49,429 bases of DNA from positions 1-49,429 of the forward strand of contig MEDL01000014.1 in NCBI GenBank assembly GCA_001724785.1, read 5' to 3'. The notes beneath the pieces were generated by a model. That model was not told where the DNA came from. It saw only the letters and a program-made list of their open reading frames with translations, and did no database searches. Shown here one piece after another: positions 9,872 through 44,636 of this stretch. Every line of letters starts with the position of its first letter. The stretch's first letter is position 1. The position numbers were made by a program, and so were the translations under genes. Source of the stretch: Acidovorax sp. SCN 68-22 (GTDB taxonomy: Bacteria > Pseudomonadota > Gammaproteobacteria > Burkholderiales > Burkholderiaceae_C).

Positions 9872-9930
9872 CAAGGAAAAACCGGCGCCAGCGCTTGCCA
9901 ATAAAGCGCTGGCAGCTATCTATTTGGTAG
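9872..9930. repeat. AGCGCTT hairpin repeat, copy 3
   Basis: Perfect 9-bp arms CCAGCGCTT (9888-9896) and AAGCGCTGG (9904-9912) flank a 7-nt loop, with AGCTATCTATTTGGTAG on the right. The TAG stop codon of the diguanylate cyclase gene (9920-9922, minus) lies within the element, so the last few residues of that protein are repeat-encoded. Confidence 0.85.
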
Positions 9931-17600: not shown

Positions 17601-20599
17601 CACAGCAGCAGGCCGCGCGCATCGCTCTTGCCGGTGCAGAGGATGCCCAGGTCGCGCGTTTCGGTGTGGTTGTCGTAGCTGTAGAAACCGCCGACGATGC
17701 GCTTCCTGCTGCTGGTGGTGATGCGCACCCGGCCCTGCACCTGAAGCGGCACGCCCGCCAGCGGCTGGCCCTGGGGCGAGAGCGCCAGGGCGTGGAAGCG
17801 CGCCTTGCTGCCCGAGGCCACCCAGCCTTCCGTCTTGATGCCGGCCACCACGGCGGCCGGCCAGAGCGTGCTGCTGCTGCGCAGGGTCTGCACCTCGCCG
17901 CCGGGGTCGGCGTAGCTCGCCTCCACCACCAGTTCCTGGGCACTGCCGGCGCGCGGCAACGGCTCCAGGGTCACCTGGCCGGCGCCGTTGGCATCGAGCG
18001 CCAGCGGCAGCTTGTCGGCGACGATGCGCCCGCCCTCGCCCCCTGCGGGCGCGGGAGCGCCGTCTCCATCTTCATCGCTGGACTGCGGCCCCTCGGCGGC
18101 GGCTTCCGCGGCGCGCGGCGGGGCAAAGGAAAAACCGTCGTAATCGGCGAACGACAGCGCCTTGCCGCGCACCAGCGCCGAGACGCGCACCGGCAGGCGC
18201 GCCGCCGCGCCGCCCGCGACGTACTGCACCTGCACCTGGACGCCAAGCTTGCGCAGGTTGACGAGCGGCCCCTTGTGCTGCGGTTGCACGCTGCCGGCGA
18301 GCACCGGCAGGCGGAAGGCCTCGACGCGGAACTGCCCCGACCCCAGGCTGTGCGCCTGCTGGCCCTTGCGGCGCAGTTCCACCGTGTACACGCCCAGCTT
18401 GGCGGCGGGCGGCACGGCGAACTCGCTCACGGCGCTGCGCCCGCCGGTCGGCGTGGTGCGCCAGGCGAGCGGCTGGGTGAACTCCTGGCCGCTGCCCAGG
18501 TGCGTCACCAGCAGCTCGTCGGGCTCGGTGCGCGCGAGCGCAAAGCCGGCCGCCGTTTCGGTGCGCAAGAAGTGCTTCATGGACACCGTCTCGCCGGCGC
18601 GCACCAGGGTGCGGTCGAACACCGTGTGCGCGCGCTGGTCGCGCTCGCCGTCGCTGCTGGTCGGCACGTTGAAGCGCCAGGGCTCGATGCCGCGTTGCCA
18701 GTCGCTCCAGACGAACGCCATGTCGGCCACGCCGTCGGCGCCGCTGTGGCGCGCGCTGACGAAGTAACCGTCGGAGCTGCCGTAGCCCGGGTCCTCGTCG
18801 TCGCAGCGCGGCGCCTCGGGCGACAGGCCGGCGAGCGGCGCGCGGCCCTGCGCATCGGTCAGCGCCTCCGCCAGCAGGCGACCGTCGCAGCCTGAGACCT
18901 GCACGCGCGCACCGGCCACGGGCTGGCCCTTGTCGAGCGAGGTGACCCAGGCGAGCGCGTTCTCGCGCCCGAGCTTGAAGTGCACTGCCAGGTTGGTGAC
19001 AAGCGCGCTGGTGCGCACGTACATGGCGCGCCCGGCGCCGTATTCGGGCGCCAGCAACGCCTCCCCGAGGCGCGGCGAAGCCACTTCGAGCACATGAAAG
19101 CCCGGCGCCAGCGGCACACCCACCACCTCGAAAGGGCGCGGGTCGGCGGCATCGGCACGCGGCAGGGTGACGCTGCGCGCGCCCGGCAGGCCGGCCAGCA
19201 GCGGCAGCATGCGCGACTGCACATAGTGGCGCTCGCCCTGCGGCAGCACCGGCGGCAGGGGTGCGCGGGCGTCGCGCGCGGCCTGCTTGCGCGGCACCTC
19301 GGCGCGGTCGTAGTACTGCACGCGCCGGTACCAGGCAATGATGTCGGCGTCGCTCTGCGGACTGAGCGTGTTCATGCGGGCGCCCTGCGCCGCCGGGCCG
19401 ATGGCGTCCAGGCGCAGCGCCGCTTCGACCTTGCGCAGCGTGAGCGGCAGCAGTGCCGGACCGTCCGGGCCCTCGGCGAAGCGTTCGACCACGCCGAACG
19501 GCGCGGCGGCGAACTTGGCCAGCGGTGGCATGGCGCCCGTGGCCACGGCCAGGGGGAACATGCCGGCGTTGGCCAGATGCCGGCCCGAGGCGTCTTGCAG
19601 GTCCTGCGGCAGCTCCACGGTGTAGCCGGTCGATTCCTCGAACGGCGGCGCGAAACGCACGCTCGTGACGAGCGCATCGGGCCGGACCGGCGCGGCGTCG
19701 CCATCCTCGCCGACGAGCGGCTTTTGCTGCCCCTGCGGGCCGCGCAGGCGCAGCGCGGCAGCGAGCTTGTGCGGCACCGGCGCACTGAACACCACCGCCA
19801 TGGGACGGATCGGCAGGCACGCGGCCTGCGCGTTCTCGCGCTCGCAGTGCAGTTCGGCGGTGAAGGCCTCGCGCACGGTGTAGCCAAAGCGCTTGTCGAC
19901 CTTGGTCGTCACGCCGCTGGGCGTGGCCAGGCCCTTGCCCACCACCAGTTGCAGCTTGCTGCCCGGTGTCAGGCGCCGGTTGCAGGCCAGGGTGACGAGC
20001 GCCAGCGGCGCCTTCGCCGCCTCCCGGTCGAGCCGCAGGGCCTGGAGCAGTTCGGCGCGCTGCGCGCCTCCGATCAGGCGCACGGGGATGCGCTCGCCCA
20101 CGCCTTCCAGGCTGCACCAGGCGCTGGCCTGCACACTCTCCAGCGTCGCCGGGCCGCTCAATTGCAGGACGAAGAACTGCTCTTCGTCGAGCTCCTGCCA
20201 GGTGCCGGGGCGGATGTGCCGGACAAACGGCCCGCCACTATTGAATTGATAGCTCCTGGCGCCCTTCCAGTCTGCGCCAGAGGACGATTTGAACCCTGAA
20301 ACGGGCTGCGCCGTGCAGCGCACGCCGGGCGGCAGCGCCTGGGCGAAATCGAACACCCATTCGCGCTCGCTGGTCCAGCGGCCGCTGCCCTGGCTGGCGG
20401 AGGCGTCGCTGCACGTGATGTCGAAGGGCGCGCGCGCGGCCGGGTCGCCGAACTGCACGGCGGGCGCATCGAAGCGGGCGACCACCTGGCGCGCGTTCGC
20501 GACTTCGCCCTGCGGCGAAAAGCTGCCCAGTTGCAGGGCCAGTGCGGCAGGCAAAGCCAGCGTGGCCGCCAGGGCCACGAGGAACGGGCGCGGGTGCAT
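14603..20599 (-). CDS. yfaS: Alpha-2-macroglobulin family protein YfaS
   Basis: The protein has 1998 residues with a signal peptide (MHPRPFLVALAATLALPAALA) and no lipobox at its end, so it is probably periplasmic rather than a lipoprotein as in E. coli. It is a chain of macroglobulin-like domains. A bait-like region lies about residues 830-860 (EAAAEGPQSSDEDGDGAPAP, acidic and disordered). The MG10/thioester domain contains CLEQ at about residue 1503, the thioester motif that can trap proteases covalently. The C-terminal domains end in GEAPNAPVQVGQK. Bacterial A2Ms are thought to protect the periplasm from proteases, working with PBP1C, whose gene follows after 33 bp. Repeat copy 5 is embedded in frame near residue 105-120. 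Confidence 0.93.
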   Translation of the reverse strand: MHPRPFLVALAATLALPAALALQLGSFSPQGEVANARQVVARFDAPAVQFGDPAARAPFDITCSDASASQGSGRWTSEREWVFDFAQALPPGVRCTAQPVSGFKSSSGADWKGARSYQFNSGGPFVRHIRPGTWQELDEEQFFVLQLSGPATLESVQASAWCSLEGVGERIPVRLIGGAQRAELLQALRLDREAAKAPLALVTLACNRRLTPGSKLQLVVGKGLATPSGVTTKVDKRFGYTVREAFTAELHCERENAQAACLPIRPMAVVFSAPVPHKLAAALRLRGPQGQQKPLVGEDGDAAPVRPDALVTSVRFAPPFEESTGYTVELPQDLQDASGRHLANAGMFPLAVATGAMPPLAKFAAAPFGVVERFAEGPDGPALLPLTLRKVEAALRLDAIGPAAQGARMNTLSPQSDADIIAWYRRVQYYDRAEVPRKQAARDARAPLPPVLPQGERHYVQSRMLPLLAGLPGARSVTLPRADAADPRPFEVVGVPLAPGFHVLEVASPRLGEALLAPEYGAGRAMYVRTSALVTNLAVHFKLGRENALAWVTSLDKGQPVAGARVQVSGCDGRLLAEALTDAQGRAPLAGLSPEAPRCDDEDPGYGSSDGYFVSARHSGADGVADMAFVWSDWQRGIEPWRFNVPTSSDGERDQRAHTVFDRTLVRAGETVSMKHFLRTETAAGFALARTEPDELLVTHLGSGQEFTQPLAWRTTPTGGRSAVSEFAVPPAAKLGVYTVELRRKGQQAHSLGSGQFRVEAFRLPVLAGSVQPQHKGPLVNLRKLGVQVQVQYVAGGAAARLPVRVSALVRGKALSFADYDGFSFAPPRAAEAAAEGPQSSDEDGDGAPAPAGGEGGRIVADKLPLALDANGAGQVTLEPLPRAGSAQELVVEASYADPGGEVQTLRSSSTLWPAAVVAGIKTEGWVASGSKARFHALALSPQGQPLAGVPLQVQGRVRITTSSRKRIVGGFYSYDNHTETRDLGILCTGKSDARGLLLCEARLDDTGEVELTASARDPDGNTFDAAATVWVSRAGEQWFGGENHDRIDVLPERRSYQPGETARLQVRMPFREATALVAVEREGIIETQVVKLSGKDPSIALKVEPGWGPNVYISVLALRGRLHEVPWYSFFTWGYKAPRDWWGAFWHDGKQYKLPTALVDLSKPAFRFGMAEIQVGAAAHRIDVKVAADQASYPVRGKAQVTISATLPDGKPAAHAEVALAAVDEALLELMPNSSWNLLGAMLQRRAWGVQTATAQMEIIGRRHYGKKAAPPGGGGGRAPTRELLDTLLLWQPAIRLDDKGQARVTVPLNDALSSFRVVAVADASVGLFGTGTTTIRSTQDLQIISGLPPLVRGGDRFRAQITLRNTTAKAMQVEAAPRATLIDLQPQVVEIPAGEARELAWEVAVPEALAETRAQALLWEIAAHDRLGGARDALKAQQRVVPAVPVAVQQGTLVQLDGSYTLPVAPPPGALPGRGGVQLALQPKLAEGLPGVRDWWARYPYSCLEQQAGKAIGMQDAAAWRALTARLPAYLDEDGLASYFPPRAGETHSGSDVLTAHLLAAADEAAALDPAMALPDAVRAPMELALVAFVEGRLQRKFWSPREDLPVRKLAAIAALARGGKAQARMLSAITIAPNQWPTNAVLDWLAILRRVPGIARQSEHLQEAEQILRSRLNYQGTRVGFSTEQQDAWWWLMQGSDVNAARLLLWAIDEPAWQAELPRLVTGFIARQQGGAWSTTTANLWGGLALRRFSAKFESTPVAGRTEAQLHGETGRIDWAKVVRVQPGDAAGAPHGASQWGAPSAPGMLTGNTLLLAWPQGGAGTLTVAHQGSGKPWLTVQSLAAVPRSAPLAAGYRVRRSVAPVEQADKGLPPGQYARGDVLRVTLEVEASADMTWVAITDPIPGGATILGSGLGRDSEIATQGEARSGSGWPAFEERSFEAFRSYYQYLPRGKVQLQYTLRLNNAGHFALPPTRVEALYAPEMFGEAPNAPVQVGQK
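20238..20292. repeat. AGCGCTT-family repeat, copy 5 (diverged), inside yfaS
   Basis: On the plus strand it reads CTATTGAATTGATAGCT, then CTGGCGC (20256-20262) and GCGCCAG (20274-20280) as a perfect 7-bp stem, then AGGACGATTT. This matches the order of copy 6 (CTAT...GATAGCT, stem, AGGCCATTTTT), although the stem bases have changed. It is read through in frame as FKSSSGADWKGARSYQFNS in YfaS. Confidence 0.55.
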
Positions 20600-31858: not shown

Positions 31859-32549
31859 AAGGGTCCGTGCGGTTGGCCTGAATGACCAGCCGCGGCGCGC
31901 CGGCCTCGCCGAGCAGGAACAGGCTCAGGTGGTCGCCGGGCTGCAGGGCCGGCAGGGGCTGTGCCGGGGTGGCCGCCCCACCGCAGCGCCCGGAAACGCT
32001 CGCCCGTACGGGATTGACCGAGCGCGCGGCGGCTGTACCTTCTGCCACCGCCGAGAAGACAGGGGTTCCCGCCGGCGCCAGCAGCAGCTGGGCCTCCCGG
32101 CAGCTGCGCGCCAGGTTGTAGAAGCGCAGTTCGGCTTTCAGTGCATCCTCGTTGCCGGAGGTGTCGTCCATCGGAGTGAGTGCGAATCCGGCGCGGGTGC
32201 GCCGCAGCACCAGGGTTTGGAAGCTGTCTGGCGGCACGCGCAGCCGCGCCGCCTCCGCACCGCCCACCTGGACGGAAAACTCCTCCCCGCCACGCACGAT
32301 GGCGTAGCTGCTGGCCGGCGCCTGCCCGCCCAGCTGCTGCACCGGGCCCGTGGCCACGCGCACGGCCAGCATCACGGACTCGGGATTCACCACGCGCACA
32401 TAGGAAGAGCCGGCGGGCGGGCGCGCTGCATACAGCTGCGACAACACGCCTTCCTGGGCCATCGCCATGCCGCCAGTCCCCAGCGCCAGCACGATCAGAA
32501 CACGCTGCAACGCAGCCGAAAAACCGGGGAGCAATTGGAAGCAGGACAT
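31848..32549 (-). CDS. AlgF-like alginate O-acetylation family protein
   Basis: The protein has 233 residues with a signal peptide (QRVLIVLALGTGGMAMA) and two beta-rich domains, matching the AlgF pattern. SSYVRVVNPESVMLAVRV opens the mature protein, and SSYAIVRGGEEFSVQVGG follows. In Pseudomonas AlgF is a periplasmic protein that passes acetyl groups between AlgI/AlgJ and AlgX. The start chosen is ATG 32549, which overlaps the stop of the MBOAT gene (TGATG); the ORF-track start is too long. It is the last gene of the minus-strand exopolysaccharide operon and overlaps the end of the converging adenylating-enzyme gene. Confidence 0.75.
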   Translation of the reverse strand: MSCFQLLPGFSAALQRVLIVLALGTGGMAMAQEGVLSQLYAARPPAGSSYVRVVNPESVMLAVRVATGPVQQLGGQAPASSYAIVRGGEEFSVQVGGAEAARLRVPPDSFQTLVLRRTRAGFALTPMDDTSGNEDALKAELRFYNLARSCREAQLLLAPAGTPVFSAVAEGTAAARSVNPVRASVSGRCGGAATPAQPLPALQPGDHLSLFLLGEAGAPRLVIQANRTDPFKR

Positions 32550-34123
32550 CAGAACTGGAAATAAAGGAAACGGGTTTCGCGGTGCAGGTGAAGCAGGCAC
32601 AGGCCCAGAACGAGCAGCAGCGCAGCCAGCCATGCGGCGCTGGGGCGCCAACGCAACCAGGCAACCGGTGCCTCCTGCGTCCGCGCGAGCGCGGGGGAAA
32701 AGCGCCCAAGTATCTCGTGCGTGTTCGGCGCAAGCCAGACGATCAGCAGCAGCAGCGCCAGGTACACGGCCAGCACATGCCTACCCGCCACAAGGCGCCA
32801 GGCTTCCCATAGGCCCACCTCGTGCAGCAGCGCGCCCGGCCATTCCAGGGCTTCTACTCCGCGCCATCCGGCCATGCCCTGGAGCAATGCCACGGCATCG
32901 CCTACGCCCGCAGCGCGGAAGAATGCGAATGCCACCACCACGGCAACGAACGTGAGCAGCACGCAGGCAGCGCGCCACAGCCGCCCCATCAAGGGGTGCC
33001 GGGGCGAGAAGCGCACCCCCACCGCGACGCGCCAGCCATGGTTCACGCACAGATAGGCGCCGTGCAACAACCCATAGATGAGGAACTGCAGGCCCGCGCC
33101 GTGCCATACGCCGGCCAAAGCCATGGTGTAGAGCGTGGGCGCCGCCACCATGGCGGCGAAGCCCCCCACCCTGCGGCTCCCCGCCGCGCCCACCGGCAGG
33201 CCCCGGCGGCTGCGCCAGCGCGAGATCTGCATGGCCAACGGGTAGTACAGGTAGGCCGTGAGGTAGCGCGTGAGCGTCATGTGCCAACGCGCCCAGTAGT
33301 CGATGATGCAGTGCGCCTTGTAGGGTGAATTGAAATTCAGCGGGAAGCGGATGCCGAACATCTTGGCCAAGCCGAGCGCCATGTCGGAATAGCCGGAAAA
33401 ATCAAAATACAGCTGCATCGCGTAGGCCAGGCTGGTGCCCCATGCGGCCCAGAACTGCAGTTCGCCCGGAGCGGCAAAACCTTGGTCGGCGTAGGGCGCG
33501 ATGCTGTCGGCCAGCAGCACCTTCTTGGCCAGGCCCATGATGAACAAGGCTCCGCCGACGGACAGGTTTTCCGCACGGAAGCGGTAATTCTGCGGATCGG
33601 CGAACTGCGGCATCATTTCCTTGTGGTGCAACACCGGGCCCGCAATCAAGTGCGGGAAGAACGTGACGAACAGCGTGTGCTTGAGCAAGCTGGGGGAGGC
33701 GACCAATCCGGCCCGGCAGTCGAGCAGGTAGCCGATCTGCGTGAAGGTGAAAAAGGAAATCCCCAGCGGCAGAAGGATCCCCCCCGCATCCAGCCCCAGG
33801 CCCGGCACCCACCCCAGCCAGGCCACCAGATACTTGTAGTAGATGAGCAGCAACAGGTTGCACGCCACCCCGAACGCCGTGGCCCAGCCCTGGCGGCGCT
33901 TGTTGCCCGCCAGGCGCAGTACGTAACGGCTGACCACGTAGTTGAAGAGGATGGACGCCGCCAGCAGGACCACAAAACGCGGATTCCACCAGCCATAGAA
34001 CACGAAGGAAGCGATGCACAGCCACAGCGCCGCCCATCCCAGGCGCACCGTGCCGAGCAGGTAGTAGCCTGCCAGCGCCACCGGCAGGAACAGGAACAGG
34101 AACAGGTAGGAGTTGAACAGCAA
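32549..34123 (-). CDS. MBOAT-family membrane O-acyltransferase (AlgI/DltB-like)
   Basis: The protein has 524 residues and about 10-12 hydrophobic segments. MBOAT landmarks are YKYLVAWLGWVPG, the GISFFTFTQIGYLLD segment, FPHLIAGPVLHHKEMMPQF, SGYSDMALGLAKMFGIRFPLNFNSPY, SDYW-like IIDYWARWHMTLTRYL, and the catalytic histidine in LAGVWHGAGLQFLIYG. It begins at a TTG codon (LLFNSYLFLFLF, as in AlgI MVFSS...), with GAGG about 10 bases upstream. AlgI moves acyl groups across the inner membrane to polysaccharide-modifying partners; DltB does the same with D-alanyl-DltC. With AlgJ/AlgX/AlgF-like genes next door and a carrier protein plus ligase facing it, either donor is possible. Confidence 0.93.
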   Translation of the reverse strand: MLFNSYLFLFLFLPVALAGYYLLGTVRLGWAALWLCIASFVFYGWWNPRFVVLLAASILFNYVVSRYVLRLAGNKRRQGWATAFGVACNLLLLIYYKYLVAWLGWVPGLGLDAGGILLPLGISFFTFTQIGYLLDCRAGLVASPSLLKHTLFVTFFPHLIAGPVLHHKEMMPQFADPQNYRFRAENLSVGGALFIMGLAKKVLLADSIAPYADQGFAAPGELQFWAAWGTSLAYAMQLYFDFSGYSDMALGLAKMFGIRFPLNFNSPYKAHCIIDYWARWHMTLTRYLTAYLYYPLAMQISRWRSRRGLPVGAAGSRRVGGFAAMVAAPTLYTMALAGVWHGAGLQFLIYGLLHGAYLCVNHGWRVAVGVRFSPRHPLMGRLWRAACVLLTFVAVVVAFAFFRAAGVGDAVALLQGMAGWRGVEALEWPGALLHEVGLWEAWRLVAGRHVLAVYLALLLLIVWLAPNTHEILGRFSPALARTQEAPVAWLRWRPSAAWLAALLLVLGLCLLHLHRETRFLYFQF

Positions 34124-34147: not shown

Positions 34148-35251
34148 TCATTGCGCGGCGGCCCAGGCACGCTGTTCATCGGCGCTGACCGGCATCGACA
34201 AGGAAAGCTCGGAGAACACCCAGACCACCACCTTCAGATGGCCGCGCCAGCGGTCCTCGCGCTCCAGCGCCGCCAGCATGGCGCCGGAAAAATACCCACC
34301 GTCCTGGCTCAGGTTCCACACTTCCCTGCCCAGGCTGCGGCCCAGACGCTCGGCCAAACCACTGCGCAAACCATTGGAGTCGCCCGCGAGAAGCACCTCG
34401 ACCGGCGCGGTATCGTCCAGGAGTCCGCCGCTGCGCTTTGCTTCAATGTGCTCGGGAATGATCCTTTCGAGCGGCGGGCGCCAGCCCTCCGGCGCCTGGC
34501 CCAGCCCCGCCAGCACGATCAGGTCGCCCATGCGCGGCTCGGCGCTCTGCCCGGTGGTGGTGGCGAATTGCTGCGCGCCCGGGCCGCCCAGCCATGCCAG
34601 CAGCGCCGGCGCCACGCTGTCGACAAACCGCTGGGCACCGGCCGGCGCCATGTGGACGTCGGTGCGGAAAAAGGCCTGCGGGAGCGACGCCAGTTGCGCG
34701 CGGACGTCGACATGGGCCACGCCGGCCGACTGCAGCGCGGCATACCACCGGTCCCAGCGTGCAAGCGCCGCAGGCGCCACTTGCAGGCCACACAACTGCC
34801 GGGCCTGCGTGCGTGACTTGTCGGGAACCGTGGCGACCAGCAACTGCACGCCGCTGCGCCGCAGGCGCTCGGACCAGTGGCGCATGAGCTGAACGCGCTG
34901 CGCGAGTGCCTCTGCGTGGCCCGCGGGTACGCGCAGTCCATCCCGATAGAACAGCCAGCCGGGGCATCCTTCCAGCACTTGCGTGCCCAGATCGCCCAGC
35001 ACCCGGTAGCGCAAGGCAGCGGCCCATCGGTCCACGCTGGCCTGCCCGGGCAGCGTCCCCAGGGCCGCGTTGACCAGCTTGCCGGCGTGCCCGTCCACCC
35101 AGGTGGCGGGCTGCCATTCGCTCGGCGCCATGCGCAGCCCCGCCAGACGCGCAACGCCCCAGGCAAAGCCCAGCGCCATGATCAGGGCGAGCACCAGAGC
35201 ACTCGCCCGGTGGCCCGCGGCGCTCTCCGTATCCGGTGCTGCCTGGTTCAA
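34148..35251 (-). CDS. AlgJ/AlgX-like (SGNH-type) acetyltransferase-associated protein
   Basis: The protein has about 367 residues with one N-terminal membrane segment (ALVLALIMALGFAWGVARL) and a periplasmic SGNH-like domain. Expected catalytic residues are the Asp-x-His pair in FFRTDVHMAP and the nucleophile serine in LLAGDSNGLRSG. GWLFYRDGLR is the usual AlgJ/X start of the domain, and RSGVQLLVATVPDKSRT matches the family. I chose a TTG start at 35251 overlapping the preceding stop codon (TTGA); the ORF-track ATG lies far inside the neighbour gene. By analogy it takes acyl groups handed over by the MBOAT protein and acts on the polysaccharide in the periplasm. It is a paralogue-like partner of the next gene. 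Confidence 0.82.
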   Translation of the reverse strand: MNQAAPDTESAAGHRASALVLALIMALGFAWGVARLAGLRMAPSEWQPATWVDGHAGKLVNAALGTLPGQASVDRWAAALRYRVLGDLGTQVLEGCPGWLFYRDGLRVPAGHAEALAQRVQLMRHWSERLRRSGVQLLVATVPDKSRTQARQLCGLQVAPAALARWDRWYAALQSAGVAHVDVRAQLASLPQAFFRTDVHMAPAGAQRFVDSVAPALLAWLGGPGAQQFATTTGQSAEPRMGDLIVLAGLGQAPEGWRPPLERIIPEHIEAKRSGGLLDDTAPVEVLLAGDSNGLRSGLAERLGRSLGREVWNLSQDGGYFSGAMLAALEREDRWRGHLKVVVWVFSELSLSMPVSADEQRAWAAAQ

Positions 35252-36234
35252 GGCAGCGCAGCCGCCAGCCTGCGGCTCCAATCCTGCTCGGAGATGAGCG
35301 ATGCGCTGTCCCACAGGCCCTTGGCATCCGGGCCCAGATGGAAGTTGGGTTCGAACAACTGCCATACGATGGCCTGCGGTGGCTCGGCACGGAACGCCGC
35401 CGATTCAAGGTATTCCATCAGCACGACCCAGAAACCCACGTCGCCCGGCTTCCAATTGACCGAGACGGGCCGGTCGAGCACATTGGACAGTTTCTGCGGG
35501 AAGCCGAAATACGGCTGCACCATGCTGTTGCCCGTAACGTGCACCGGCGCCCGCGCGCTGTCGAGCAGGCCGGCCTGCTGCGTGGCGCGCCGCACGGTGA
35601 ATACTTCCCGTCCGGCTGCGCGCCGCTGCTCGGGAGTCAGAAAGCGCTCCGCGAGGTCGCCATACCGGCGTTCCTTGGCGACGGTGCCCAGCGCCATCCC
35701 CGTGCCGGGGTTCCCCGCCAACTGCGGCACCAACTGCCGAATCAGCGCGGCCGTGGCCTCGGCCACCGCATCGGCGGCGGCCTGCGTCCAGTGCTGGTCG
35801 GTGCGGTAATAGACCGCTTCACCGCGCGCCTGCACCGTGCGCAGCAGCGCTTCGACATCAAAGCCGGGCACCTGCGCCGCCGCCAGGCGGTCGCGGATGC
35901 CGGCGTAACGCCCCAGCATTTCCGGGGTCAGCCGGTCATCGCCCACGAGCTTGTCGGCATAAAAGAGCTTCTTGCTGGGCAGTACCGGCGCCACCAGGAC
36001 GATGCCCCGCGCCGCAAGACGCCGCCGCACTTCGGCGACACGCGCCACACTGGCATCGATGGCCGGCCAATCGGGTGCGTCTGTCGTTCCCCAGCCGGGA
36101 AACAGGTAGTGCTCCTTGCCGATGACGGCCAGGATGTCCGGTTGGGCCAGGGCAGGCGTCGCCAGCCACAGCGCTGCCGGCAGCCCCAGCAGAGTCCGGC
36201 GTCGGAGCCCATGGAAAAAGCAATCGGTTTTCAT
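35248..36234 (-). CDS. AlgX/AlgJ-like (SGNH-type) polysaccharide O-acetyltransferase
   Basis: The protein has 328 residues from ATG 36234 (MKTDCFFHG). The signal peptide has a twin-arginine-like RRRTLLGLPAALWLATPALA, suggesting Tat export. The SGNH-like domain has YLFPGWGTTDAPDW, VLVAPVLPSKKLFYAD, the Asp-x-His pair in YYRTDQHWTQ and a serine in VTGNSMVQPYFGF at the nucleophile position. In alginate systems AlgX performs the final O-acetylation; AlgJ is also active. Which of the two tandem proteins here plays which role is unclear. It overlaps the next gene (TTGA) and follows the NfrA-like gene by 37 bp. Confidence 0.8.
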   Translation of the reverse strand: MKTDCFFHGLRRRTLLGLPAALWLATPALAQPDILAVIGKEHYLFPGWGTTDAPDWPAIDASVARVAEVRRRLAARGIVLVAPVLPSKKLFYADKLVGDDRLTPEMLGRYAGIRDRLAAAQVPGFDVEALLRTVQARGEAVYYRTDQHWTQAAADAVAEATAALIRQLVPQLAGNPGTGMALGTVAKERRYGDLAERFLTPEQRRAAGREVFTVRRATQQAGLLDSARAPVHVTGNSMVQPYFGFPQKLSNVLDRPVSVNWKPGDVGFWVVLMEYLESAAFRAEPPQAIVWQLFEPNFHLGPDAKGLWDSASLISEQDWSRRLAAALP

Positions 36235-36271
36235 CGGTTCAGGCAATGCATACGGTCCACCCCACAGGCCT

Positions 36272-39200
36272 TCAATAGGCAAAGGTGACGCTGAGGAAAA
36301 GCCCCCTGGCGCGGTCGGTCACGCCGCCAACGCGGGCGCGGTACTGCAGGCTTGCGTCGACGTAGGAGCTTTGCGCACGGTAGCGATCCCCCGCGAGCCA
36401 GTAGCGCACATTCACGCCGACACCCGCGCCAAGCGACCAGTCGCGCCCGCTGTCGGCAAGTTCGAAGTCTCCATGGCCGGCAACGGGGGTGCCGGCGGCA
36501 CGCGCGCGGTTGGAATACCAGTCGGCCGCGAGCGACACGTGGGGGAAGAACACCAGGCGTTCGTTGTAGTCGGTCACGAAACTGCGCCCCACCCGCACTT
36601 CCCCGGCTGCAAAGCCCTGGCCGCGTCGGAGTTTTCCCTCGCTGCGCCCGAGTACCTGGCCGTTGCTGTCGCGCAGGGTGTATGCGGTGGGGGCATCCAG
36701 CCGCGTGTAGCCCAGCTGCAGATACCCTTCCATGGTGAACCAGCTGGACGTGTCGATGCGCAGCCCTGTGCCTTCGTAGAAGCCGTACAGGGCGTAGGCT
36801 TGCCACGCCCCGGCGCCGCCCTCGGTCTGGTAGGCCACGGCAGCGGCCTGCTGGTTCAAGGCGCAGCGCACCGCGGCATCGCTCGGGTTGAGGAACCCGC
36901 CGCGCGCCGCATTTCCGATGAGGAACTGCCGCTCCAGGCCGAAGGTCAGGTTGTTCTCGGCCCATGGGGTGTAGCGCACGCCGATGGCGCCCGTGGTCGT
37001 GGGAAAGCCCGAGGTCGGGCGCGAGCGTGTTTCTCCGACTTCTATGGTCCCGCCGCAGGGGTCGGGCACCGACTGCGCACCCGTCAGGTCGGAGCCGCTG
37101 TACAAGGTGTTGGAGATGCGCCCGTAGACATCGAACGTGCTGCTGCTGGAATTGAGGAAACCGGACGGCCGCCAGTACGCCTCGACGGTGCTGAACGCGG
37201 CATTTCCGGGGAGCGACACCGGCTGGCCAACCAGGCCGTTCGAGGGCGCGCGCGCTCCCCGGTAGCCGACCGACGCCGTCACACCCCACTCGCGCGAGAA
37301 GCTGGCGATGGCGCTGCGCGTATCGAAGCGCTGCTGCGCGTCGAGTGGCATGCGGCCGGCGTCGGCGTCATCGATGGCCTGGCGCAGCAACACCGCCGCA
37401 GCAGGCCTGCGACCGGCCGCAGCCATGGCGTACGCCTCGTCGAGCACATTGGTGGCGGGCGCCTGGCCGGTCTCCCGCGCTGCCACGAAATCCGCCAGCG
37501 CCAGCGCGGGCTCGCCATGGGCCAGCCGCAGGTAACCGCGCTGGCGCAAGGCATTGGCATCGGCGGGCTGCGCCGCGAGGGCCTGGTCCAGTCGGGCCAT
37601 GGCTTCCTCCTGCTCGGCTCGGGTCCCCGCCGCCAGGGCCGTCGTCAGCAGCGTCTGGTTGCCGCTGCTCTTGGGATCCTGGGCCACCGCCATGCGCGCC
37701 AGGGCAATGGCCTGCTCATAGCGCTTCTGCCCGTATGCGGCGTACGCGCGCGCGGCGGGGTTGTCGGTGCCGGGGGAATCCCAGGGCTCCATCTCGCACA
37801 CCGTTCCGTACGGCGTTTCATGGCACAGCTGCAAGGGCGCGTAGGCGCTTACCGGCAAGGCATCGCCCTGGCGCCACCAGCTCCCGGCACCCCCGGCCTG
37901 CGCACGGCGGGCGGCCGCCTGGCTGTCCCCCTCCGACAACGGCGCCAGCAGCTCCAGCGCACGGGCACGCTGCCCGCCGGCAAGCGCCAGATCGGCACCG
38001 ATCAAACGGGTATTGCGGCGCAGCGCTTCATCGATCCAGTCCTGGGCCAGCACGGCATCGATGTCCTGCTGCGCCTCGTTGGCCTGCCCCAGTTGCGCCC
38101 GCAGGTAGGCCCGCTGAAGGTGCAGCGTGGCGCTTTCGTCGTCGGCCTGGAGTGCATCGCTCGCGGCCGCCTCGGCGCCGGCGATGTCCTGCGTCGCCTG
38201 CAGGGCGCTGATGAGCAGCAAACGGTGGCTCACGACATCGGGCGCCCTGCGCACCGCTTCGCGCGCCTCGGGAACCGCATCCTGTGGGCGGCTCCCTCCC
38301 ATGGCCTCGTAGGCCTTTTGCGCGTGCTGCACGGCAATCGCCTGGCTCGCCAAGCGCATCAGCGCGCCGATGGCCTCCGGGTTGGGTGCACCCAGGGAAA
38401 TGGCCTGTGCACCTGCCGCAATCGCTTCTTCGTAGCGCTGCAAGTCTTCCAGCGCATTGAGCCACAGCAGCGCCCAGTCGCCCTGGCTCGGGTCGGTGCG
38501 CACGGCGATTTCGGCATTCGCCGCGGCCGCCTCGTGCTTGCCCGCCGCCTGCTGCTGGTAGGCCAGGGTCGCAATGGGAAAAGCCTTGCGGTATTCGGGA
38601 GTGGTGGGAACTTCGCCGGCAGCGGCCGGGCCAGCCGGCCGCAAATTGGCGACTGCCTGCTCCAGTTCGGGGCTGGTGTGGCCTTGCGCGATGGCCTGCT
38701 CGGCCGCATGCAGGGCATCGTCGAGCCGGGAGAGTTTCTGCAAGGCGTAGACCCGCAACTGGTGCAGCCGGACGGCGTCGGGACGCAGTTCCAGCGCGGC
38801 TTCCGCGCGCAGCAGGGCGGTGGCATAGTCGCCGCGGGCATAGGCCTTGAAGCCTTCGTCCGACAGCCGCCAGACACGGCCGCGCAGCGGGCGCTTACCG
38901 CTGCTGCCGGGCCGGAAATCTGGCTGCCTGGCGGGTGCGGCACGCACCCCGCGCTCGTCCGGGATCGGGGGCGCCACGGCCGGAGTCGTCGAGGGGGGCG
39001 GAGCGATCGGTTGCACCGGCGCGTCGGGCCGAGGCGCCTGCCAGATCGGCAGCGCGGGCATTTGCAGCCGCACGTAGTGCATCAACGCACGTCGGAATTC
39101 GCCGTCGACGATGGTATCGGCGGGGCCCTTGCCCCAAGACACCTCCGGTGCCCGCTCGATGGCTTGCAGGGCGCGCGCCAGCAGTTCGGGGTCCAGGCGT

Positions 39201-39514
39201 CCTGCCGCAGCCACCACCGGTGCGGGTTGCACCCCGTCGCTGCGCCGGTGGAGCGCCAGGACCCGCTCCAGCTTGAGGCCGGCCGTTGCCGCGCGGCGCG
39301 GGTCACGCACCAGGGCACTCACGTCCGCCCCGTCTTGCGGTGCCTGGGGCACGGGCATGGGGTGCGGGGAACGCGGTAACTCCATTTGCAACGACATGGT
39401 CAGGCGAAGCGGCGCATCGTCGAGGGCATTGCCCTCGGCTCCGAAAGCGGGCAGCAGCGGCCAGGCGGCCGCAAGAGCCAGAACGAGGACAGTGCGGGAA
39501 GGCATGGACTTCAT
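36272..39514 (-). CDS. nfrA: NfrA-like outer-membrane TPR/beta-barrel export protein
   Basis: The protein has 1080 residues from the ATG (MKSMPSR) that overlaps the stop of the upstream gene (ATGA). A signal peptide (LVLALAAAWPLLPAFGA) and a Pro-rich linker precede about ten TPR-like helical repeats (about 215-690; for example GFKAYARGDYATALLRAEAA and ALRQRGYLRLAHGEPALAL). The C-terminal 370 residues form a beta-barrel (FGLERQFLIGNAARGG, GVNVRYWLAGDRYR) ending in the aromatic VTFAY. This matches E. coli NfrA (about 990 aa), the outer-membrane component of the c-di-GMP-dependent polysaccharide exporter that serves as the phage N4 receptor. Similar TPR-barrel architecture occurs in BcsC and PgaA, but adjacency to NfrB-type genes favours NfrA. 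Confidence 0.85.
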   Translation of the reverse strand: MKSMPSRTVLVLALAAAWPLLPAFGAEGNALDDAPLRLTMSLQMELPRSPHPMPVPQAPQDGADVSALVRDPRRAATAGLKLERVLALHRRSDGVQPAPVVAAAGRLDPELLARALQAIERAPEVSWGKGPADTIVDGEFRRALMHYVRLQMPALPIWQAPRPDAPVQPIAPPPSTTPAVAPPIPDERGVRAAPARQPDFRPGSSGKRPLRGRVWRLSDEGFKAYARGDYATALLRAEAALELRPDAVRLHQLRVYALQKLSRLDDALHAAEQAIAQGHTSPELEQAVANLRPAGPAAAGEVPTTPEYRKAFPIATLAYQQQAAGKHEAAAANAEIAVRTDPSQGDWALLWLNALEDLQRYEEAIAAGAQAISLGAPNPEAIGALMRLASQAIAVQHAQKAYEAMGGSRPQDAVPEAREAVRRAPDVVSHRLLLISALQATQDIAGAEAAASDALQADDESATLHLQRAYLRAQLGQANEAQQDIDAVLAQDWIDEALRRNTRLIGADLALAGGQRARALELLAPLSEGDSQAAARRAQAGGAGSWWRQGDALPVSAYAPLQLCHETPYGTVCEMEPWDSPGTDNPAARAYAAYGQKRYEQAIALARMAVAQDPKSSGNQTLLTTALAAGTRAEQEEAMARLDQALAAQPADANALRQRGYLRLAHGEPALALADFVAARETGQAPATNVLDEAYAMAAAGRRPAAAVLLRQAIDDADAGRMPLDAQQRFDTRSAIASFSREWGVTASVGYRGARAPSNGLVGQPVSLPGNAAFSTVEAYWRPSGFLNSSSSTFDVYGRISNTLYSGSDLTGAQSVPDPCGGTIEVGETRSRPTSGFPTTTGAIGVRYTPWAENNLTFGLERQFLIGNAARGGFLNPSDAAVRCALNQQAAAVAYQTEGGAGAWQAYALYGFYEGTGLRIDTSSWFTMEGYLQLGYTRLDAPTAYTLRDSNGQVLGRSEGKLRRGQGFAAGEVRVGRSFVTDYNERLVFFPHVSLAADWYSNRARAAGTPVAGHGDFELADSGRDWSLGAGVGVNVRYWLAGDRYRAQSSYVDASLQYRARVGGVTDRARGLFLSVTFAY

Positions 39515-41211
39515 ACGGCGACGACGTCCTGCATGACGGGGCGCGGCGGCGCCAGGGGCTTGGACTCTGTCTCCTGGAAAGAAATCGCTTCCTCCAGGGT
39601 GCCCTTGTCCAGCCAGCCCTGCTCCAGCAGGATGGTCCCCAACGGGCGGCGCGAATCGCGCTGTATCGCCAACGCCTGCTCCAGGTGGCTGGCGTCTATG
39701 GCACGCCACGACAGCAGCACCTCGCCCAGACGCTGGCGGTGCCGTTCGAGCTGATCCCCCGAAGGAAAGTCGTGCATGGTCTTGTCCCAGACCAGCCGGG
39801 TACCGAACAACTTGTGCGAAAGGAACAAACGCCAGGCCCGCGCAGCGGCCATGGCATTGATGAAGTTGCCTATGACCATGCGCGGAATGGACAGCAGGCC
39901 ATGCTCCCAGCCGTACATGCTGCCGACAAAATAGGCACGCTGCACCACGCGCAACAGCAGCGCCACGGCATTGAGGCCCATGATGGTGACGAACCAGCCG
40001 CCGGGCTCGAAGGCGGACGGGTAGTACACCGTCCACCAGCCGAGCCTGTCGGCGGCGTAAAACAACAGGAAGTTGAGCATCAACACATAGCCCAGGATGG
40101 CCACGAAGGCCGTGACGAGGCCCTTGCGGTCCCGAAACAAGAGGTATTTGGTCGAGAGTGGCCCCGCCCAGCCCACCTGCTGCCAGCCCTGCAGGCCGAT
40201 GCCGATGGTCCAGCGCGCCTTCTGCCGGTAGGCCGCACGGAAGGTATCGGGGAAGTACTCCCGCACCCCCAGGGGCATCTGAATGGAGCCAATCTTTTCG
40301 CGCCCCAGCCCGAACCAGGAAATCCGACGCGTGACGTAATCGACGTCGAACTTGCCGAAGATCTGCTTCATGCCCATGCGGTTGAGGCGCGTGCCGATGT
40401 CGTAGTCCTCCGTCAGGCTTTCCACGTTGAACGGCTCGTTCGTCGTCGTCGCAGCCAGCACCTGCATCGCGCTGTGCGAAAAACAGGTACCCACCCCTGC
40501 GGAAGGGACCATGCTCGACAGGCTTTCGCGCACCACCAGGTCCTTGCTGTGCCACTCCGCGAACTCGTCCATGTAGGTGCCAGCAACGAGCTCGAACCAG
40601 CTGCGCTCCAGGGACGTCACCGGCAGCTGGATGAAGTCCATGCGCGGCAACAGGTAGTTGTAGTACTTGAGCTCCAGCGGATGCAGCACGTCCTCGCTGT
40701 CGTGCAGCACGAAGCCCGCGAAAGGTTGGCCGGCCGAGCGCTCGTGCAGGAACGCTGCCTGGACCACCCAGTTCAAGCAGTCGGCCTTGCAGGTCGGGCC
40801 GTCGTGCGGGACTTCCACGCGCACCAGCTGGCGGTAGCGCCGTCGCATGCGCTCGACCTCGGCGATGGTGCGTTCGTCGTTGCGGTAGGTGCCGACAAAG
40901 ATCGTGTAGTTGCTGTATTCCAGCACCGACACCATGTTGCTGAGCATGGGGGCGATGACGTCGTACTCCATCCACGCCGGCACCATGATCGCCATTGGCT
41001 GCTCCGCAGGTTGGCGCAACTGGTCGGCCGTCAGCCGCTTGTACTGGCGGTGTACGGTGAGTTTTCGGTACACCTGCCGAACCCAGTACCACGCGTCGAT
41101 GAACAGGTCATCGAGGCTGGAAAGCAGGATGACCACACCCACTACCGCCGTCACGATTTCCAGGACGCGGTAATAGTCGGCGAACAGGTAGGGCCAGTAC
41201 AGCGTGAACAT
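39511..41211 (-). CDS. nfrB: NfrB-like inner-membrane glycosyltransferase with C-terminal MshEN domain
   Basis: The protein has 566 residues. An N-terminal membrane segment (VLEIVTAVVGVVILLSSL) is followed by a GT2 domain with AIMVPAWMEYDVI, the Asp motif HDSEDVLHPLE, the acidic TEDYDIGTRL and a QxxRW-type RQKARW. Several C-terminal membrane helices follow. The last 75 residues are an MshEN (T2SSE N-terminal) domain, LGEVLLSWRAIDASHLEQAL then LGTILLEQGWLD, two copies of the LGxxLxxxG pattern that binds c-di-GMP in MshE and in E. coli NfrB. It probably polymerises UDP-ManNAc made by WecB and moves the chain to NfrA, activated by c-di-GMP. It is shorter than E. coli NfrB (about 745 aa). Confidence 0.9.
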   Translation of the reverse strand: MFTLYWPYLFADYYRVLEIVTAVVGVVILLSSLDDLFIDAWYWVRQVYRKLTVHRQYKRLTADQLRQPAEQPMAIMVPAWMEYDVIAPMLSNMVSVLEYSNYTIFVGTYRNDERTIAEVERMRRRYRQLVRVEVPHDGPTCKADCLNWVVQAAFLHERSAGQPFAGFVLHDSEDVLHPLELKYYNYLLPRMDFIQLPVTSLERSWFELVAGTYMDEFAEWHSKDLVVRESLSSMVPSAGVGTCFSHSAMQVLAATTTNEPFNVESLTEDYDIGTRLNRMGMKQIFGKFDVDYVTRRISWFGLGREKIGSIQMPLGVREYFPDTFRAAYRQKARWTIGIGLQGWQQVGWAGPLSTKYLLFRDRKGLVTAFVAILGYVLMLNFLLFYAADRLGWWTVYYPSAFEPGGWFVTIMGLNAVALLLRVVQRAYFVGSMYGWEHGLLSIPRMVIGNFINAMAAARAWRLFLSHKLFGTRLVWDKTMHDFPSGDQLERHRQRLGEVLLSWRAIDASHLEQALAIQRDSRRPLGTILLEQGWLDKGTLEEAISFQETESKPLAPPRPVMQDVVAV

Positions 41212-41235: not shown

Positions 41236-43443
41236 TTACAGGTCCTTGCTGCGTGTGCGGCTGCGCTTGATGCGGTACGCCCAGACGAGCAGCAGCAACA
41301 GCAGCAGCAGGCCAGTGCTCACGAGCGGAACGCCCCACGAGAGGTAGCGGCGCCATTCGTAAAAGGCGCTCTCGCCAGCCCGCGGCGGCTGGCTCGCCGA
41401 GGGATTGCTGCTGTCCACCCAGCTCACCGGTCCCTGCGCACCGATCAAGGCGATATCGCCGCGGTTGAGCACGAAAGGCTTTTCCTGCGCCGGTGCGGGC
41501 CCACCGAGCGTTTGCCAGTACAGACCCTCCTGGCCATGGGCGCGCGTGACTTCGATGGAACTCAACTGCGCCAGCCCGTTGACGTCCAGCCACGGCGTTT
41601 TCTTGCCATTGATGCGCAGGTGCGCGTCCTTGACCACGACACGCGTCTCCGCGCCATCGATGGCGGTTTGCATGGCGAGGAAGGGCCGCGTGGGCGTGGT
41701 GGCGCCGTCCTGCGCGACAACCAGTTCAGCGCGCACTGGCGTCACTCCCGCCGCCACCGCCATCCGCACCACGCGCATCAGGCTGGCAGGGGCATCAGCG
41801 AGGTAGGCTGCTGGGACGATCAGTTGCGGCGCACCGGACATCAGCGGCAACAAGCCGACGAAGGTGCCATCGGGCGCCGAATCACCGCCGCGCACGTAGC
41901 TGGTGGGCAGCACGTTCACCGGGAAGGCCTGTGGCGTCTCGTTGCAATCGTTGGAATAGGGTTGGCGCTGAAAGGAAACACGCACCACGTTGCTCAGGCC
42001 GAGCGCGTAGCCGGGGACGCGCGCGTCCAGCCGCTCGGGATGGCCGTCGGCCTGCAGGCGCTTGGCCGACAACAGCACGTTGTTCCAGAACACCGATGCC
42101 ACGGGCCGCGTGGACGAAGCACCGGGTGCGGCCGCCACGTCGACCACCAGATCGGAAGGCATCCGGCCATTGACTGCCACCGCGGCCAGCGGCAGGGTGG
42201 CCGTCCAGTCACCGCGCGCCAGCACGTCGAAGTTGGCGTCGCTGCCGCCCAGGTTGGTCAGGCGCAGGCTGGCCTGGTCCAGCACTTCGGGCGAATTGGC
42301 TTCGGCCACGACGACGTCGCGCGTCGTCAGGGCGCTGCGCCAAACGTCGGCAAATGCACCGGCCGCCTTCGCGCCCGCGTCCTCGGCGACCACGATCACC
42401 GGGCGCGCCCCCAGTGTGGCGAGGCGAATGCCGTTGGCGGGCAGCGCCGTGCCACCCACGGCGGTCTGCAGGCCGCGCCAGGTGGCAAAGGCGCGCACCG
42501 CGTCGGCGTCGCCTGCCAACTGGGCTGCCAAGGCGTCAAGCGCCGCCGCCACCTGCTTGTGCAGCGCCGGGTCGGCCACGACGATGTCGCCGGTCGCCAG
42601 CGTGGAACCCAGCACCACCAGCGCGCCCACTTCGGCCTGATCCTTCAGCGCGTGCTGGGCGTTGTTCTGGCCGAGCGCAGCAAACGCCGGGACATGCGCC
42701 AGCCCGGGCGGAAGTTGCCAGCCCGTCGTGTCCACGGTATCCCCGGGCGCCGGGAAGGACCGGATCTGCACCCGGCGGTTGGCCTGCTCCAGCGCCACGC
42801 CCAGGCGCCAGGCCGTGTCGTACGCCGTCTTGTTCAGGCTGCGCGACGCCACGAGCAGCGTCGGGCGTGCGGGAAGAGTGAGCCAGGCATCGGCCAGGCT
42901 GGTCAGCGCGGCACTGCTGAAACGGTAGTTGAAACGCGTGTCGTTGGACACCGCCAGGACGTTGCCGGTGGAGCGCTCCACATCGCAGATGCGCTGCCCG
43001 ACATTGTTCAGCCAGTCCACCCGGAAGCGCAGGAAGCCATTGGCGGGCTTGGTGACATCCACCTTGAGTACCTGGCTGGGGTCTCCCTCCGAGGTGTCGA
43101 TGCGGCGCGAATGCACCGGGCGGCCGTTGACGAACAACAGCATGGAGGTGCGGCCCTCCTCGGCCTTGTAGTAGCGCCCGCGGAAATCGATGCTGGCGTC
43201 TGCCAGGCGCAGGGTGCGTGGAACCGGAAGGTAGAACTCCTGCCGGCTGTCGTAGCCGTTGAGCAGCACGTCTTCCCCGAATCCCAGGTCCGACAGGGCG
43301 AAACTGCGGCTGACCCAGGTCTCGCCGTGCAGGCGCGCCAGCGCATCCCCGGCGGGGCTGGCCAAGGCCAGCAGCGGCGTGCTCAGGCAGGCAAGAACAA
43401 GCAGGCGCGCGCCGCGCCGAGAGAGGGAAACGCATGTGTTCAT
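41236..43443 (-). CDS. BcsB-like periplasmic cellulose-synthase-subunit family protein
   Basis: The protein has 735 residues with a signal peptide (GARLLVLACLSTPLLALA), a long periplasmic part of alternating carbohydrate-binding-like and flavodoxin-like folds, and one C-terminal membrane anchor (VPLVSTGLLLLLLLLVWAY) followed by a basic tail. BcsB-type features are SFALSDLGFGEDVLLNGY, FLRFRVDWLNNVGQRICDVE and RPTLLVASRSLNKTAYD. In cellulose synthesis BcsB guides the growing polymer through the periplasm and holds BcsA; here the glycosyltransferase is NfrB-type and no BcsA is present, so it is a BcsB-like partner for a different polymer. Its ATG overlaps the wecB stop (ATGA), and the NfrB gene follows after 24 bp. 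Confidence 0.83.
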   Translation of the reverse strand: MNTCVSLSRRGARLLVLACLSTPLLALASPAGDALARLHGETWVSRSFALSDLGFGEDVLLNGYDSRQEFYLPVPRTLRLADASIDFRGRYYKAEEGRTSMLLFVNGRPVHSRRIDTSEGDPSQVLKVDVTKPANGFLRFRVDWLNNVGQRICDVERSTGNVLAVSNDTRFNYRFSSAALTSLADAWLTLPARPTLLVASRSLNKTAYDTAWRLGVALEQANRRVQIRSFPAPGDTVDTTGWQLPPGLAHVPAFAALGQNNAQHALKDQAEVGALVVLGSTLATGDIVVADPALHKQVAAALDALAAQLAGDADAVRAFATWRGLQTAVGGTALPANGIRLATLGARPVIVVAEDAGAKAAGAFADVWRSALTTRDVVVAEANSPEVLDQASLRLTNLGGSDANFDVLARGDWTATLPLAAVAVNGRMPSDLVVDVAAAPGASSTRPVASVFWNNVLLSAKRLQADGHPERLDARVPGYALGLSNVVRVSFQRQPYSNDCNETPQAFPVNVLPTSYVRGGDSAPDGTFVGLLPLMSGAPQLIVPAAYLADAPASLMRVVRMAVAAGVTPVRAELVVAQDGATTPTRPFLAMQTAIDGAETRVVVKDAHLRINGKKTPWLDVNGLAQLSSIEVTRAHGQEGLYWQTLGGPAPAQEKPFVLNRGDIALIGAQGPVSWVDSSNPSASQPPRAGESAFYEWRRYLSWGVPLVSTGLLLLLLLLVWAYRIKRSRTRSKDL

Positions 43444-44636
43444 AGCTGGGACTCCGAGAAAATTGCGTTCAGAGGGGGATGGGGCTCGGGCGCGTGGCGC
43501 AGCTCCGGCCGGAATTCAGCGACGCTGCGGCCGCACAGGGCGTCCACAATGCGCTGGCACGCATGCCCGTCCCCGTAGGGGTTGGCCTTGCGGCAGAACT
43601 GTGCGTACAGCGCGGCGTCGTCCAGAAGGCGGTTGGCTTCGGTGGCGATGCGCTCGCGCGAGGTGCCGACCAGGCGTACCGTCCCCGCTGCCACGGCTTC
43701 AGGCCGCTCGGTCACGTCGCGCAGTACCAGCACGGGCTTGCCGAGTGCGGGCGCTTCTTCCTGCACACCGCCGGAATCGGTCAGGATGAGGTGCGCGCGG
43801 CGCATCAGCCAGAGGAAATCGAGGTAATCGAGCGGCTCGATCAGATGGATGTGCGGGTGCCCGGCCAGCGTCTTCTGTACCACGCCCTGCACGTTGGGAT
43901 TCAAGTGCACCGGATAGACGATTTGCACGTCGTCCCGCCCCGCAAGATCCCGCAACGCGGCGCAGATATTGCGCAGCCCCTCGCCGAAGTTCTCGCGCCG
44001 GTGGCCGGTGACGAGCACGAGCCTGCGCCGCCCATCCAGCCAGTGGTAGCGCTGGGCCAGGGCCTGCTGGCGCGCCGGGTCGGCGTCCAGGGTGGCAAGC
44101 GCCGCGTTGAGCGCGTCGATGACGGTATTGCCGGTCACCCAGATGTGGCCGGAGACGCCCTCCTGCAGCGCCGCCGCACGCGCCGAGGGGGTGGGTGCGA
44201 AGAGCCACGTGCTGACCGAATCGACCAACCTGCGGTTCATTTCTTCTGGGAAAGGCGAATGAATGTTGCCGCTGCGCAACCCCGCTTCGACGTGGCCGAC
44301 CGGTATGCGTCTATGGAACGCGGCCATGGCGGCGGCGGCGGCCGTGCTGGTGTCGCCATGCACCAGCACGCAATCGGGCCGCGCGGCGTCCAGCACCCCA
44401 TCGACGGCCGCCAGGAGGCGGGCGAACAAACCATTGAGCGACTGCCCCGCCAGCATCACGTCGAGTTCGTGGTCGGCCTGTAGCCCAAACAGGCCCATGA
44501 CCTGGGCGAGCATTTCGCGGTGTTGCCCCGTCACGCATACGCTGCTGTGCAGCTGCGGCTCACCCCGCAGGGCGAGTACCAGGGGGGCCATCTTGATGGC
44601 TTCGGGACGGGTACCGAAAATCGACAGGACGCGCAT
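43440..44636 (-). CDS. wecB: UDP-N-acetylglucosamine 2-epimerase (non-hydrolysing)
   Basis: The protein has 398 residues from ATG 44636 (MRVLSIFGTRPEAIKMAP, the textbook start); the ORF-track start is upstream noise. It shows VCVTGQHREML, VLVHGDTSTA, GHVEAGLRSGNIHSPFPEEMNRR, TGHRRENFGEGL and TDSGGVQEEAPALGKPVLVLRD, all conserved in WecB. The enzyme interconverts UDP-GlcNAc and UDP-ManNAc. In E. coli WecB supplies UDP-ManNAc for the Nfr polysaccharide as well as for ECA. Here no wecC dehydrogenase follows, fitting use of ManNAc itself. It is the first gene of the eight-gene minus-strand operon, with a candidate promoter about 160 bp upstream. Confidence 0.96.
   Translation of the reverse strand: MRVLSIFGTRPEAIKMAPLVLALRGEPQLHSSVCVTGQHREMLAQVMGLFGLQADHELDVMLAGQSLNGLFARLLAAVDGVLDAARPDCVLVHGDTSTAAAAAMAAFHRRIPVGHVEAGLRSGNIHSPFPEEMNRRLVDSVSTWLFAPTPSARAAALQEGVSGHIWVTGNTVIDALNAALATLDADPARQQALAQRYHWLDGRRRLVLVTGHRRENFGEGLRNICAALRDLAGRDDVQIVYPVHLNPNVQGVVQKTLAGHPHIHLIEPLDYLDFLWLMRRAHLILTDSGGVQEEAPALGKPVLVLRDVTERPEAVAAGTVRLVGTSRERIATEANRLLDDAALYAQFCRKANPYGDGHACQRIVDALCGRSVAEFRPELRHAPEPHPPLNAIFSESQL

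Follow-up and report, generated by a model that had tools for sequence, protein, structure and literature searches.

Introduction

The NfrB synthase makes the phage N4 receptor glycan, and WecB makes UDP-ManNAc. The binding of c-di-GMP by Escherichia coli NfrB, and the need for c-di-GMP, were published in 2021 (PMC8669469, PMC8669472). According to the first of these reports, the Kd is 1.0 µM and the c-di-GMP domain of NfrB occurs in 1,705 homologues (PMC8669469); the construct that was measured (residues 414-745) also contained MshEN_C and a second repeat. The same reports name the nfr cluster of Simplicispira suum, with alginate-type acetylation genes (PMC8669469), and that of Achromobacter, with a BcsB homologue and O-acetyltransferases (PMC8669472). 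The MshEN_N half of Vibrio cholerae MshE binds c-di-GMP by itself, with a Kd of 0.35 µM (PMC5013675).

Here, a 49,429-nucleotide stretch of DNA from Acidovorax sp. SCN 68-22 (contig MEDL01000014.1), referred to as the window, was found to encode a short NfrB that ends in a predicted c-di-GMP-binding domain. As c-di-GMP control of E. coli NfrB had already been published, this finding, although correct, is mostly as expected. Novelty is confined to the natural minimal architecture, the rest being already known; as a lineage-wide feature it was not found stated in the available text of PMC8669469 or PMC8669472.

Results

The NfrB synthase

The nfrB-like gene at 39511..41211 (-) encodes a processive GT2 glycosyltransferase of the short form, with 566 amino acids, recognized from its open reading frame and from NCBIfam and Pfam GT2 matches. 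PRK15489 matched the protein with an E-value of 1.4e-277 (NCBIfam). The NfrB equivalog PRK11234 matched with an E-value of 8.6e-171 and 569.9 bits, below its own cut-off of 1170 (NCBIfam); the long betaproteobacterial NfrB forms likewise missed this cut-off, which fits enterobacterial NfrB. The Pfam and NCBIfam matches support the assignment to NfrB that a preliminary description of this DNA had implied. The elements of a GT2 synthase (DxD, TED and QxxRW) were all found: DSED at residues 171-174 (40690..40701 (-)), in which D171, E173 and D174 are invariant across 61 sequences; the catalytic TED at residues 267-269 (40405..40413 (-)); and QKARW at residues 330-334 (40210..40224 (-)).

No solved NfrB structure was found by sequence search, and the closest solved fold to the GT part of the model was that of the bacterial cellulose synthase BcsA. 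In the full-length AlphaFold model, which was made without a row from the E. coli collection, the GT part was mostly confident, whereas the linker (residues 476-493) and the last 18 residues were not. Hydropathy indicated three membrane spans, at residues 10-41, 363-388 and 404-424, which would be consistent with a cytoplasmic C-terminus. No second copy of NfrB was found in the host genome, the assembly of which is 78% complete.

The nfr operon and its genomic setting

The protein is encoded within a wecB-bcsB-nfrB-nfrA-algX-algX-MBOAT operon, the order of which is kept in most short-form loci. The UDP-GlcNAc 2-epimerase gene wecB (43440..44636 (-); NCBIfam wecB, E 9.9e-141) makes WecB available for UDP-ManNAc. 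It is followed by a gene for a BcsB-like periplasmic partner (41236..43443 (-)), which matched Pfam BcsB at E 3e-5, just above the cut-off, and is conserved beside nfrB. The nfrA-like gene (36272..39514 (-); Pfam NfrA_C, E 4.6e-20), the ATG of which overlaps the nfrB TGA (ATGA), supplies the outer-membrane TPR pore partner of NfrB. Two AlgX/AlgJ-like acetyltransferases (35248..36282 (-) and 34148..35365 (-); Pfam ALGX, E 1.2e-58 and 8.9e-59, respectively) and an MBOAT O-acyltransferase, an AlgI-type partner (32549..34123 (-); Pfam MBOAT, E 3.1e-19), complete the set. The gene set is in keeping with a ManNAc polymer that depends on WecB, like the one proposed for E. coli, and that would be O-acetylated like alginate.

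The host genome has 44 GGDEF matches, so c-di-GMP is available. A diguanylate cyclase gene was found near the nfr operon in only 5 of the 80 loci compared. Among 151 genomes sampled from the host's bacterial family, 11 had an NfrB match, and the nfr synthase was missing from both same-genus genomes sampled; this patchiness suggests frequent loss or transfer.

Several other features were observed. A bacterial alpha-2-macroglobulin gene adjoins a penicillin-binding protein 1C-like gene in the window (14603-20599 and 12233-14569 (-)), a common pair. Elsewhere, the host genome encodes two other MshE-motif proteins, in which the repeat lies close to the start (C45:2627-2785, L081; C13:11848-12012, L083). 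More than 20 kb from the nfr operon, the window encodes a 761-amino-acid dCache-PAS-GGDEF diguanylate cyclase (9920-12205 (-)), a type of gene that relatives mostly lack near nfr. DgcJ, the partner of NfrB in E. coli, is another diguanylate cyclase, and dCache is among the keywords of PMC8669472.

The C-terminal MshEN_N domain

A complete tandem c-di-GMP motif was located at residues 494-546 (codons 39574-39732 (-)). Motif I, RLGEVLLSWRAIDASHLEQALAIQ (residues 494-517, 39661..39732 (-)), and motif II, PLGTILLEQGWLDKGTLEEAISFQ (residues 523-546, 39574..39645 (-)), each of 24 residues, are separated by the spacer RDSRR (residues 518-522, 39646..39660 (-)); five residues is the canonical spacing of MshEN motifs (PMC5013675). 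The profile of the MshE-related c-di-GMP-binding domain, NF053729, matched over its full length (1-53/53, E 9.1e-14; 51 bits, cut-off 38; NCBIfam), and the match at 39574-39732 was recovered in a whole-genome search too. The MshEN-type domain that had been proposed for the C-terminus of the glycosyltransferase is present at these residues. The proposal of two LGxxLxxxG repeats 30 residues apart held for the tandem repeat itself, but the distance is 29 (24 + 5) and the terminal Gly occurs in the second repeat only, the first having Arg503.

Scored against the relaxed 24-residue motif as published, the NfrB tandem reached 21 out of 22, whereas 20,000 shuffled tails reached at most 17 and no other window ORF of at least 100 amino acids exceeded 17. 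A chance repeat was ruled out by these shuffles together with the full-length profile match. The domain is joined to the GT part by a linker with a conserved KTxHDFP in the alignment (residues 476-493, 39733..39786 (-)), and is followed by a variable C-terminal tail that is predicted to be disordered (residues 547-566, 39514..39573 (-)); both had pLDDT values below 50.

A profile of 31 short-form relatives, searched against PDB chains, matched PilF (E 1.7e-15) and MshE (5HTL, E 5.4e-8) across both repeats. When the last 98 residues were modelled with AlphaFold, four helices were predicted at positions 17-33, 39-52, 56-63 and 68-81 of the piece, with a block pLDDT of 76-89. The first seven Foldseek matches to this model were c-di-GMP-bound MshE and PilF-GSPIIB (rmsd 0.7-1.0 Å over 54-55 columns, probability 1.00), with weak E-values (0.06 or higher) that reflect the short length of the piece. 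The predicted fold is therefore the four-helix bundle of MshEN_N.

The model did not position the domain reliably relative to the GT part, the linker being of low confidence, and MshEN_N had no fixed position on the enzyme. It could be, then, that the domain binds c-di-GMP without directly switching catalysis, and instead recruits a diguanylate cyclase or keeps the synthase in a complex with its partners, so that the ligand would control assembly or location; E. coli NfrB does work with DgcJ via direct contact (PMC8669469). We consider this unlikely, as the contact with DgcJ in E. coli has been ascribed to a local supply of c-di-GMP, with the ligand itself needed (PMC8669469, PMC8669472), and most relatives have no GGDEF gene linked to the nfr operon. 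By homology with E. coli NfrB, probable direct gating of NfrB by c-di-GMP is the best explanation.

Conservation of the predicted ligand-binding residues

Equivalents of the ligand residues were assigned by alignment with V. cholerae MshE. The predicted ligand residues, namely the first Leu, the third-place Gly, the LxxxL and the last Gln of either motif (L495, G496, L510, L514 and Q517; L524, G525, L539, I543 and Q546), are retained with almost no variation. Each of the 50 aligned short forms has the same residues at the places equivalent to L10, G11, L25, Q32, L39, G40, L54 and Q61, and the equivalents of R9, L29 and G47, together with the hydrophobic L58 place, are nearly invariant. Mutation of G11 in MshE abolishes c-di-GMP binding (PMC5013675), and the glycine substitutions G491L and G519S, in the two repeats of E. 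coli NfrB, abolish or reduce function (PMC8669469, PMC8669472). The equivalents of G491 and G519 are Gly496 and Gly525, which are invariant in the short forms.

The turn glycine (Gly18/Gly47 of MshE) is kept in motif II only, as Gly532; place 10 of motif I, equivalent to Gly18, is occupied by Arg503. In short NfrB, motif II also has Pro as its first residue. These deviations raise the question of whether the domain is a degenerate MshEN/GSPII fold that has lost c-di-GMP binding, as in XpsE or PilF GSPII-A, and acts as a structural cap, since loss of binding is possible in GSPII domains (PMC5013675, PMC12002112). However, most members of the NfrB family have Arg or Gln at place 10 of motif I, and since E. 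coli NfrB, a proven binder, has Gln there, Arg503 decides neither binding nor membership. Motif II of PilF GSPII-C likewise starts with Pro (place 1), and this domain binds with a Kd of about 460 nM (PMC11731258). With these precedents, neither the Pro nor the non-Gly residue is strong evidence against binding; no domain with measured binding was found to have Arg at the Gly18 place. Furthermore, what the non-binders have lost (the third-place Gly, the final Gln or the Leu cluster) is retained and near invariant in short NfrB, and the C-terminal half, contacts of which helped to block binding in GSPII-A (PMC12002112), is absent here. A degenerate domain is therefore very improbable, and retention of binding is the preferred reading.

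The turn-glycine region of motif I (residues 502-506, 39694-39708 (-)) is replaced by a family-specific W[R/Q]A[I/V]D, the Trp and Asp of which are invariant in 60/60 non-E. coli sequences and absent from E. coli NfrB.

Selection was gauged by dN, the safer reading because dS approached saturation in several of the comparisons. For the window and L001, its nearest relative, the dN values were 0.048 (GT part), 0.057 (MshEN_N) and 0.121 (tail); among nearest relatives, the protein sequence of MshEN_N evolves at roughly the slow pace of the GT part. The tail was fastest in all pairs tested and MshEN_N modestly above the GT part, a pattern that indicates purifying constraint on MshEN_N and much less on the tail.

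Short and long forms of NfrB

NfrB was compared across 80 loci (L001-L080), together with E. coli NfrB (L084). The proteins of L001-L062 have 557-577 residues and end just past the domain; those of L063-L080 have about 700-780 residues and extend past it. A truncated or frameshifted longer NfrB was ruled out, as every protein of L001-L062 stops shortly past the domain; the overlap or abutment of the nfrB stop with the next start codon, at the junctions inspected, also counts against it. The shorter NfrB that retains the domain is thus a lineage-wide trait. The preliminary description was right that the protein is shorter than E. coli NfrB (566 versus 745 amino acids) with the domain kept at its end, except that only the MshEN_N half is kept.

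PF05157, which covers the MshEN_C half, was matched in the tested long forms, E. coli NfrB included, with L067 below the cut-off (Pfam). Neither the window protein nor L001 matched it, in contrast to E. coli NfrB and L063. Besides MshEN_C, the tested long forms and E. coli NfrB have a second NF053729 stretch, at their extreme C-terminus; no role of this second tandem repeat was found described in the text consulted on NfrB. The window protein lacks the MshEN_C alpha/beta half of a complete two-part MshEN domain. As PF05157 and the second stretch occur in long forms only, the short form retains only the nucleotide-binding half; MshEN_C and the second repeat are absent throughout the short lineage.

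In a quick tree of the GT part alone, all short forms fell on one side of one branch, with a support of 21 there; a single short/long change with such low support makes a single loss likely, not proven. The related synthase models of PRK14716 (442-502 positions; NCBIfam) matched up to residue 483-488, near the linker, so MshEN_N behaves as a C-terminal add-on.

Discussion

The best explanation for these observations as a whole, to which we assign a probability of about 85%, is that c-di-GMP-bound MshEN_N at the C-terminus allosterically activates the NfrB synthase of this Simplicispira-like betaproteobacterium. By analogy with E. coli NfrB and the protein families involved, the 53-residue four-helix bundle would lie on the cytoplasmic side and bind one c-di-GMP between its two 24-residue repeats, and binding would switch on the attached GT2 synthase allosterically. 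The synthase would polymerise UDP-ManNAc from WecB, the BcsB-like protein and NfrA would lead the chain out, and the AlgX and MBOAT proteins would acetylate it.

The E. coli construct that was measured (414-745) held the extra modules; gating of a glycosyltransferase by a stand-alone MshEN_N would go beyond that precedent. The chances are even that a single 53-residue MshEN_N, lacking MshEN_C and the second terminal repeat, suffices to control a processive polysaccharide synthase. If it does, either switching would not need the additional modules that E. coli NfrB has, or these would have another role, e.g., contact with a diguanylate cyclase. The minimal short NfrB is a good test of MshEN_N sufficiency, and a compact, ligand-sized module in which the transfer of a c-di-GMP signal to a GT2 synthase may be studied without PilZ. 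Published c-di-GMP gating of NfrB would extend to betaproteobacteria of a lineage in which the sensor is reduced to its minimum.

Comparison with known systems

E. coli NfrB (745 amino acids; PMC8669469, PMC8669472) resembles the window protein in being a GT2 synthase, in its catalytic motifs and in having a tandem MshEN motif at the C-terminus; in both, nfrA follows nfrB, and the WecB dependence in E. coli has its counterpart in the wecB of the window. The two proteins share about 42-44% identity. E. coli NfrB differs in having MshEN_C (Pfam PF05157, 542-628) and a second tandem repeat, both absent from the window protein, and the window operon has wecB, the BcsB-like gene and the acetylation set in place of the E. 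coli ybcH. The nfr clusters with acetylation genes of S. suum and Achromobacter are of the same operon type (PMC8669469 Fig. 7B; PMC8669472 Fig. S5). No substantial difference from them was seen, S. suum being compared by its published description; NfrB of S. hankyongi is 92% identical to the window protein.

BcsA cellulose synthase is likewise a GT2 synthase with a BcsB partner, and is controlled by c-di-GMP, whereas gating here is predicted. BcsA senses c-di-GMP by PilZ; as the preliminary description had held, the window protein has none, a Pfam search finding no PilZ even at E 10. The N-terminal domain of V. cholerae MshE (5HTL) and the GSPII-B/C domains of Thermus thermophilus PilF contain the same 53-residue c-di-GMP-binding four-helix bundle. 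In MshE and PilF, the bundle is part of a pilus ATPase and MshEN_C comes after it, whereas in the window protein it lies at the C-terminal end of a membrane synthase and MshEN_C is missing.
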